Assembly: GCA_947495975.1 (NCBI GenBank)
Contig: CANMBE010000003.1
Span: 62,001-126,000, forward strand
Direction: 5' to 3'
Length of the DNA: 64,000 nucleotides
Source of the DNA: Ignavibacteria bacterium
GTDB lineage: Bacteria; Bacteroidota; Ignavibacteria; Kapaibacteriales; Kapaibacteriaceae
Shown: positions 7,556 to 18,381 of the stretch, one piece after another
Layout of the letters: the number at the start of each line of letters is the position of its first letter
How positions within the stretch are numbered: the stretch's first letter is position 1
Position numbers and translations under genes: made by a program
Notes under the pieces: generated by a model
What the model saw: the letters and a program-made list of their open reading frames with translations, nothing else
Told to the model about the DNA's origin: nothing
The model's database searches: none

Positions 7556-8381
7556 ATGTTCAATGCGATTTCAACAGTCCGCCATATCATTCGCCCAATA
7601 CTGCGGCGCGATGCGCCACAGTACGCATCTACCATCTCGCTGTTTGTCTGTATCGCCCTTGCCATAATTTCTCTCGTGATCGGGTTGTCTCAACGGTCAC
7701 TTATTGTACAAACAAGCTGTGATCATTTTTCAGAGTCCGCCTGAAAACCGAAACACGTTTCTTCTGCTTGCATGGAGCGCAATCTCCTTCTTTGTGATGC
7801 GCATCACTGGCCGACTGCTAGAGAAATATGCGAATCGATTTCACATGCCCATGCTTCGCTATGATGCAGAGCTGTGGCGTGTTGACTCGTGGATGGAGAT
7901 AGGGGTATTTGCCAGTCTCATTCTAAGCGGCTTGTTGCAATTCACTGGTCGTTTTGCCTATGCGGCCATATTCGACGGAGTTATTTCTATTGGGTTGCTA
8001 CTTGCCGCAATACAGGTACCCCTCAAACATGGCAAGGAAGCCTTCCGGCAATTGCTTGATCGCACTCTACCCGATGAAATGCAGTATGAGATCCTTGCTG
8101 TGATTGCTGAGAATCACGACCGCTTGTGTGAATTCAAAAGTGTACACACACGGCAGTCGGGCAAGGACATCTTCATTGAGATCGACCTCGTGATGCCCTT
8201 CGACTACACCCTAGAGCATTTGTATTTCTTAGAAGCCGATATACTCAAGGGGCTTCATGGGAAATTTCCTACTGCTATCCCACGCGTGTACGTAACACCG
8301 TGCGATCACCAATGCGAGCGTGCGGGTGAAACCACGTGTCCAGTAAAGATGTCCTTACAGCCCCCTACCTCCCTCTCTTAA
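7556..8381 (+). pseudogene. CDF-type cation efflux transporter, frameshifted
   Basis: Two overlapping reading frames make one protein of the cation diffusion facilitator superfamily (Zn/Fe/Mn efflux). The first frame, from ATG 7556, encodes a basic start and transmembrane helix 1 (ASTISLFVCIALAIISLVIG) and runs to a stop at 7742-7744. The second frame, open from about 7704 to 8381, encodes the remaining membrane helices and a cytoplasmic dimerisation-like domain (LPDEMQYEILAVIAEN onward). The frames join at the T5 run in CATTTTTCAG (about 7727-7731): one T fewer gives a continuous ORF through CDHFQSPPENRNTF. This is a sequencing indel, a real inactivating mutation or, less likely, slippage. 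The family call rests on overall layout and the C-terminal half; classical HxxxD ligands are not obvious. The 3' end overlaps the convergent OmpA gene by 17 nt. Confidence 0.6.
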
Positions 8382-17880: not shown

Positions 17881-18381
17881 TCATTTTAGCCCTAGTGCTC
17901 GGTGCATATCATCGCCGTAGTCAGTCAGGATCTCATCTCCTACTTTAATCTTCTTGATGGCAACGATCCAGATCCGGCTGCCAAAATTTACGTACTCGGC
18001 ATTGGATTTCTTGCCAGACCCGTGAAAATCGCAAGCATAACGGGCAACTCCACTACTTGTAAGGTGAGCGTCTATGACGAATTTCTCGGAGAGCTGAATT
18101 CCATAGGAACCCATCGAATCTTTGTCGTATCGACGGTCATATTGGTCTGTTGTGAGCTTTTCACCCGAATATTCCACTATTCGGTCGTCTATGGCGAATG
18201 GCTTTTCAGCAAAAAGTCCAAGCCCGGCCTGAGGAATATTGCTTTTGCGTACCGAAATGCCCAAATGCTCTTTTGTGTGTTGACCGCAGAAAGGGTGCGT
18301 TATCATCGTCATTCGTTTGCATCGCCCTTTGTCGCCAACATGCGCACATCGGCGAGTAACGTTCGTTGAGTGTCGTTTCAT
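17881..18381 (-). CDS. SET-domain protein with zinc-finger-like N-terminus
   Basis: 166 aa. Residues ~11-35 hold a Cys/His pattern (CAHVGDKGRC then PFCGQH) resembling the small C3H finger of the 'potential DNA-binding' zf-C3Hc3H type. Residues ~40-160 form a SET domain: ISVRKSNIPQAGLGLFAEKP at its start, then IVEYSGEKL, ARYACDFHGSGKKSNAEY where SET proteins usually have RFxNHSCxPN, and DEILTDYGDD at the end. SET domains transfer methyl groups from S-adenosylmethionine to lysines; the bacterial substrate is unknown. The loss of the NHSC motif could mean altered or absent activity. A TATATTCG box stands six bases before the ATG. Possible horizontal transfer from a eukaryote or another bacterium cannot be judged here. 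Confidence 0.8.
   Translation of the reverse strand: MKRHSTNVTRRCAHVGDKGRCKRMTMITHPFCGQHTKEHLGISVRKSNIPQAGLGLFAEKPFAIDDRIVEYSGEKLTTDQYDRRYDKDSMGSYGIQLSEKFVIDAHLTSSGVARYACDFHGSGKKSNAEYVNFGSRIWIVAIKKIKVGDEILTDYGDDMHRALGLK

Follow-up and report, generated by a model that had tools for sequence, protein, structure and literature searches.

The window, a stretch of 64,000 nucleotides from an Ignavibacteria bacterium (contig CANMBE010000003.1), carries on its minus strand a short gene whose product joins a cysteine/histidine arm to a SET domain. The gene and its features are as follows.

17881..18381, minus strand: open reading frame for the zinc-knuckle SET protein, 166 amino acids, ATG start (SET profile, homologues, dN/dS)
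18277..18348, minus strand: N-terminal C3H knuckle, C12, C21, C32 and H35, spaced C-x8-C-x10-C-x2-H (27-member alignment)
17914..18225, minus strand: SET domain, residues 53-156 (PF00856 at 3.4e-12, structure matches of the model)
17989..18033, minus strand: altered NHSC-equivalent motif, residues 117-131 (CDFHGSGKKSNAEYV), with C117 at the Asn position (alignment of 29 members)
17914..17928, minus strand: C-terminal motif LTDYG, residues 152-156, with the catalytic-type Tyr155 kept and Thr153 at the aromatic-switch position (DYG in 29/29)

The gene and its N-terminal arm

The open reading frame is confirmed as a real gene for a SET-domain protein, and it is the sole SET gene detected in its own genome. 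The protein matches the whole Pfam SET profile (PF00856, positions 1-105 of 105) at E = 3.4e-12 and 47.1 bits, against a cut-off of 22.4, and its top match among PDB sequences in a phmmer search is KMT2D/MLL4 (6.8e-8), with the SET domains of MLL1 and EZH2 also among the closest. This score and the SET fold of a predicted model bear out the SET-domain call of the preliminary description, which had been made from the letters of the DNA. The zinc-knuckle SET protein is a modest clade-specific variant of a known enzyme type, the SET family. The same description had called bacterial SET proteins uncommon, and this was overstated: among 296 genomes sampled from the phylum, 27 are matched in a search with the window protein alone, and a 2014 review, in the portion available, puts the number of bacterial genomes with SET genes at more than 500 (PMC3980110).

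Among the 27 homologues that cover the N-terminal arm, the three cysteines and the histidine are invariant, together with THP and a threonine after the histidine. The ligands are spaced C-x8-C-x10-C-x2-H in 19 members from the window's own family (f1), the window protein included, and in one member from a second Kapaibacteria-lineage family of the same order (f3); seven other f3 members have C-x9 as the first interval. From this ligand pattern, we infer that the arm would bind zinc. The C/H cluster that had been likened to zf-C3Hc3H stands, with four invariant ligands in 27/27, and the zf-C3Hc3H label falls: in scans at E up to 10, a depth limited by the HMMER filters, which discard most matches above about 0.1, PF13891 is absent from the Pfam matches of the whole protein, of N-terminal fragments and of the 27 members.

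The WRC profile (PF08879) is matched at sub-threshold level in 8 of the 27 members, with a best value of 5.9e-4 and, for one of them (L009), 17.2 bits against a cut-off of 28.6; for the window protein's own N-terminal fragment, the Pfam scan lists no WRC match. Other sub-threshold Pfam matches to the arm are to SCA7 (4/27), DUF5061 (3/27), DUF5763 (2/27, best E 1.5) and two further profiles (one member each). WRC knuckles have the ligand spacing C-x9-C-x10-C-x2-H. The seven f3 members with C-x9 are alike in spacing to the WRC and DUF5763 (PF19067) knuckles, the other 20 members, with the window protein, having C-x8, and all matches lie under the Pfam cut-offs. To judge from these profiles, the closest resemblance of the arm is probably to WRC-type knuckles, at sub-threshold level, and not to zf-C3Hc3H. 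WRC is also present in some Medicago JMJ demethylases, according to excerpts of one paper (PMC8838541). A profile of the arm found no match among PDB sequences at E up to 10.

Across the phylum sample, this profile matches 21 of 296 genomes; 12 of these matches fall on the zinc-knuckle SET genes themselves (at 5.5e-19 or better), and the other nine, in other genomes, stand at 4.5e-4 or weaker. Two genomes (G109 and G082) have one extra weak match each. Two of the weak matches, from other Bacteroidota (L235 and L236), are small stand-alone proteins with a C-terminal C-x8-C-x10-C-x2-H knuckle and a C-x2-C pair upstream.

Active-site motifs and predicted fold

Canonical SET domains carry the motifs RFINHxCxPN and ELxFDY, the latter with the catalytic tyrosine, as given in the part of the review at hand (PMC3980110). 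At the position of the former the window protein has RYACDFHGSGKKSN, and the canonical motif is absent; over residues 114-130 the altered motif reads RYACDFHGSGKKSNAEY, as the preliminary description had written it. The alteration is family-wide and not a local mutation: in all 29 members of the zinc-knuckle SET family, NHSC has become C-[DST]-[YF]-[HQ]-G, always with Cys at the Asn position, and the family consensus around the site is R[YF][AIV]-C-[DST]-[YF]-[HQ]-GS...N, plus DYG. Because C-[DST] replaces NH in 29/29, the protein is a variant within the SET family and not a canonical NHSC-type member. In the comparison set, NH is kept in 8/8 NH-type proteins and N-D is found in 10/10 proteins of what we call the ND type, a label coined in this analysis.

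The remaining motifs are largely preserved. GxG is kept in 28/28 and DYG in 29/29 by pattern count, and YxG in 28/28 by alignment; the denominator is 28 for GxG and YxG because one member (L068) is a contig-edge fragment that lacks their region. ELxFDY is half kept, since DYG is retained but the F/Y position is taken by T (17 members), A (8), S (2), G (1) or V (1). This position, 153 (Thr in the window protein), is the one that we take to be the aromatic-switch site. The site holds a non-aromatic Ile in 6/8 NH-type comparison proteins, so the change there is not special by itself.

The usual zinc partner of the NHSC cysteine is the post-SET CxC cluster. A post-SET CxC...C pattern occurs in 0/29 members of the zinc-knuckle family, 5/8 of the NH type and 0/10 of the ND type, and its absence from the family partly explains the loss of the NHSC cysteine. 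The invariant Cys at the Asn position is the only cysteine between GxG and the C-terminus in 17 of 28 members.

An AlphaFold2 model of the window protein, built from 10 sequences, has a mean pLDDT of 64 and a pTM of 0.60, with residues 1-38 below 50 and ten-residue blocks at 62-92 over residues 41-160. In fold comparison (Foldseek, VIA-align), the model resembles the SET domains of MLL, EZH2 and SET8 at Z 11.6-13.1 across the 50 PDB entries listed, the top Z among these being that of MLL1 (7u5v_A; Z 13.1, 113 residues, 2.5 A). With the zinc arm at a pLDDT below 50, the fold evidence covers the remainder of the protein. Because model confidence is modest, the zinc and SAM sites are not visible in the three-dimensional model.

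Distribution, neighbourhood and selection

Used alone as the query against genome contigs, the protein gave nine loci at 62-84% identity; such a scan picks up close relatives only. Twelve of the 27 matching genomes in the phylum sample carry the zinc-knuckle type, all within f1 and f3. Among 123 genomes of the order searched at E up to 0.001, 32 match: 21 of 23 in f1, all eight f3 genomes and 3 of the 92 others. These three (G323, G350 and G383) have canonical NH-type proteins, and the zinc-arm type occurs in 0/92 order genomes outside f1 and f3. The two f1 genomes in which the gene was not detected are G304 (80% complete) and G310 (90%), and in G303 and G305 the f1 members are truncated at contig edges. 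One f3 genome (G208) has both a zinc-knuckle and a canonical NH-type SET gene. In the NCBI taxonomy, Kapaibacterium belongs to the Bacteroidota, class Eximiradiia.

In a SET tree of 52 rows, the zinc-knuckle (100/97), ND-type (95/89) and NH-type (99/93) proteins each lie on a single side of one branch. The tree is unrooted and was drawn from its midpoint, so the zinc-knuckle and ND proteins can be called adjacent groups, and sister groups only with a root on the NH side; long branches that meet at these joins were flagged by the program. The idea that f1 and f3 form a single clade that gained the gene once was set aside, as a one-gene DnaB tree does not unite the two families (one-clade test p-AU 0.048; weak inner support). 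The occurrence in f1 and f3 may reflect ancestry with losses, or transfer.

A role as phage or plasmid cargo was likewise rejected. The gene has no match in 50,697 phage records, and a scan of viral contigs, in which 31 stretches were matched by pattern, gave no confirmed relative. Plasmid records gave nine matches, all distant at 29-33% identity, and the three proteins read are of the canonical NH type.

Eighteen f1 loci were compared, two of which (L007 and L084) coincide. Upstream of the SET gene and on its strand, 17/18 have a TonB receptor gene, five of these receptors being distant (25-27% identical to that in the window); a hydroxylase-like gene is found in 17/18 (absent in L070), and nuoC in 17/18 (absent in L008, at a contig end). 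One f1 locus (L077) has a rearranged neighbourhood. This makes the SET gene an established part of the f1 chromosome. The six f3 loci have none of these f1 neighbours, and one of them has a weak GT9 match; the neighbours listed for two f3 loci are unrelated to those in f1. With the order fixed in f1 and unrelated in the six f3 loci, we dropped the attempt to read function from the neighbours. A promoter scan gave three promoter-like sites, where shuffled sequence had 1.5 on average (sd 1.4), and a terminator scan gave three terminator-like sites, where shuffled sequence had 0.7 (sd 0.8); none of the terminator-like sites follows the gene on its strand.

Two side observations concern individual f1-type loci. 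In G082, FKVQGSG-like repeats on both strands (L071:5140-6082 and 7751-8263) surround a gene between the hydroxylase and SET genes and overlap the 3' part of the SET gene region; they look like a DNA repeat element. Two contigs titled Bradyrhizobiaceae (L009) and Melioribacter roseus (L005) show the f1 gene order, so these labels of metagenome-assembled genomes look wrong.

Seven homologue pairs were taken for dN/dS, of which two were resolvable, dS not being computable in the other five. The two gave 0.020 (L005/L007, dS 1.0) and 0.092 (L003/L006, dS 0.58), which means strong purifying selection on the SET gene in these pairs.

Substrate, rival readings and known systems

The window's own genome encodes an HU protein with an H1-like, lysine-rich C-terminal tail that ends in KKAAPKKAAPKKAAAKKKK (L085, G000:C8:63139-63408), plus a second HU. 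HU matches occur in 117 of the 123 order genomes, and the tails were examined at 92 loci among the matches listed, 91 of which were parsed (without L173; f1 without G312). All 22 f1 genomes examined have a lysine-rich tail, 14-30 residues long. It is also present in families that have no zinc-knuckle SET protein, namely in 4/4 parsed rows of f5, 6/6 of f51, 3/3 of f54 and 1/1 of f52, and in several rows of f2, f4 and f53. In f3 genomes with the SET gene, the tail has only 8-9 residues in 6/8. The HU tails differ widely among the families of the order, with a maximum of 63 residues in f2 (L149), where the repeats are of the KAAAKPAAKAAPV type. The HU tail is not supported as the specific substrate: co-occurrence in the order does not single HU out, and shared ancestry limits the comparison, the gene being confined to two families. 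HU in f1 is a possible substrate, not one that is singled out, and a DNA-associated protein, as suggested in the preliminary description, may be the target. A search of the own genome for Hc1 gave no match, and a search for histone folds gave two matches of 20.3 and 14.8 bits, both short of the 21.4-bit cut-off; the stronger of the two has an internal stop.

On three Paraburkholderia plasmids, a canonical SET gene has an HU gene in its vicinity, as the adjacent listed gene in two (L177 and L186) and about 2 kb away in the third (L190). These may possibly be partner pairs; the SET protein is of the other type, and the arrangement is not evidence for the zinc-knuckle protein. In the plasmid stretches H3, H4, H7, H8 and H9, HU is not listed, in a gene table that is incomplete and with flanks of only 600 bases for H1, H3 and H7. 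Five ND-type proteins (L023-L026 and L039) have lysine-rich C-terminal tails of their own, and could be self-methylated or bind DNA.

The reading that we prefer, with confidence evenly balanced, is that the gene encodes an active, endogenous, SAM-dependent protein-lysine methyltransferase of the SET fold, which would work in the bacterium's own cytoplasm. The N-terminal knuckle would bind one zinc ion and dock the enzyme on nucleic acid or a basic protein, and SAM would be held by main-chain contacts although the Asn-His of NHSC is Cys-Asp/Ser/Thr. A lysine would then enter the channel and be methylated, and the small switch residue (T/A/S/G/V) would allow more than one methyl group to fit. 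The substrate would most likely be a lysine-rich endogenous protein, such as the nucleoid protein HU or a ribosomal protein, and not a host histone. We favour the active enzyme because the tyrosine, GxG and YxG are invariant, because SET homology and fold agree and the gene is under strong purifying selection in the two resolvable pairs, and because nearly every genome of two families (21/23 and 8/8) keeps it, in a fixed neighbourhood in f1, with no match in the phage records and no confirmed relative in the viral-contig scan. Prokaryotic precedents and the H1-like HU tail in the own genome point the same way: in the available text of the review, MC1-alpha, a chromosomal protein, is a methylation substrate of the archaeal Go1-SET, and Chlamydia Hc1 is one of cpnSET, but NUE of Chlamydia trachomatis did not methylate Hc1, which counts against the active-enzyme reading (PMC3980110). 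Further points against it are that the HU tail is common in families without this SET type and short in most f3 genomes, that the own genome has no Hc1 match and no histone-fold match over the cut-off, and that the neighbours are uninformative and differ between f1 and f3.

Another point against activity is that the Asn-His pair is missing in 29/29, because changes in NHSC can lower or abolish activity. In excerpts of the respective papers, SETMAR N223A lowers H3K36me2 (PMC8704517), and SMYD3 is described as needing NHSC and EEL for its activity, their deletion acting like silencing (PMC4537039). It is conceivable, if rather doubtful, that the protein is a pseudo-methyltransferase, whose SET fold would serve as a binding or scaffold module and whose knuckle and cleft would bind protein or nucleic acid with no methyl transfer. 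The precedent is yeast SET3, which has RRSCQPN in place of the motif and, as far as the consulted text goes, has no methyltransferase activity, yet is part of a histone deacetylase complex (PMC2474616). The replaced NH pair and the small residues at the switch position fit such a module; however, a dead enzyme need not keep an invariant Tyr (29/29) and GxG (28/28), and the ND-type relatives keep N-D with the same Tyr in 10/10.

The clade-specific changes fixed at both the NH and the switch positions could also mean that the altered pocket reflects an unusual acceptor, either a single lysine outside any histone-like tail or a different residue. SETD3, for example, methylates a histidine. The own genome, with no Hc1 match, no histone-fold match over the cut-off and an HU tail that is not correlated with the gene, is in line with this; but no such acceptor in particular is positively indicated, and Ile at the switch in 6/8 NH-type proteins means that this site alone says little. 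We regard the unusual acceptor as unlikely. If the protein were a nucleomodulin of the RomA or NUE kind, aimed at the chromatin of a eukaryotic host, this would fit a weak match to Legionella AnkI/LegAS4 (NF043024; 6.4e-8), which covers the SET domain only (residues 43-156). Its 31.8 bits are far under the equivalog cut-off of 550, however, and the gene lies amid ordinary chromosomal genes in nearly every genome of two families, which makes this reading highly improbable. Going beyond our preferred reading of an active endogenous enzyme, we may speculate, with little confidence, that the zinc-knuckle, Cys-for-Asn SET proteins of f1 and f3 are a distinct active subfamily that marks the bacterium's own nucleoid or translation machinery, with a cofactor site that dispenses with Asn-His and an invariant Cys that could make it redox-gated.

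Endogenous protein-lysine methylation would have a clean model in a gene like this one, which carries a zinc arm of its own and is retained in almost every genome of two bacterial families. If the protein is active, a whole clade can do without the Asn-His pair that is usually called essential; an inactive protein would be a bacterial counterpart of SET3-like binding modules. The bacterial SET proteins in the portion of the review consulted are mostly host-directed effectors (PMC3980110). Literature searches on SET domains in Kapabacteria/Kapaibacter and on bacterial SET proteins with WRC gave no description of a zinc-knuckle plus SET architecture, and a search combining WRC, zinc finger, SET domain and bacteria gave plant papers only.

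Compared with the SET lysine methyltransferases (PF00856) MLL/KMT2, EZH2 and SET8, the window family is alike in fold, GxG, YxG and D-Y, with 20-30% identity over 112-128 aligned residues across the 50 entries listed. It differs from them in Cys-[Asp/Ser/Thr] for Asn-His, a GSGKKxN loop, an N-terminal C3H knuckle of its own and a small aromatic-switch residue, and it lacks the post-SET zinc cluster. The ND-type SET proteins of other Bacteroidota (L023-L029, L031, L038 and L039) share one side of the unrooted tree with the zinc-knuckle group (split 99/93) and have also lost NHSC, with an inserted loop that ends in NN and a post-SET pattern in 0/10; unlike the zinc-knuckle group, they have N-D instead of C-[DST], a longer loop and no zinc knuckle, and several have lysine-rich C-terminal tails. 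The canonical NH-type bacterial SET proteins with a post-SET region (L069, L180, L181 and L182 from the same order; L177-L179 from Burkholderiaceae plasmids) share the SET fold, whereas they keep NH[SCA]C and the post-SET C-x-C-G...C-R and lie on the other side of the tree.
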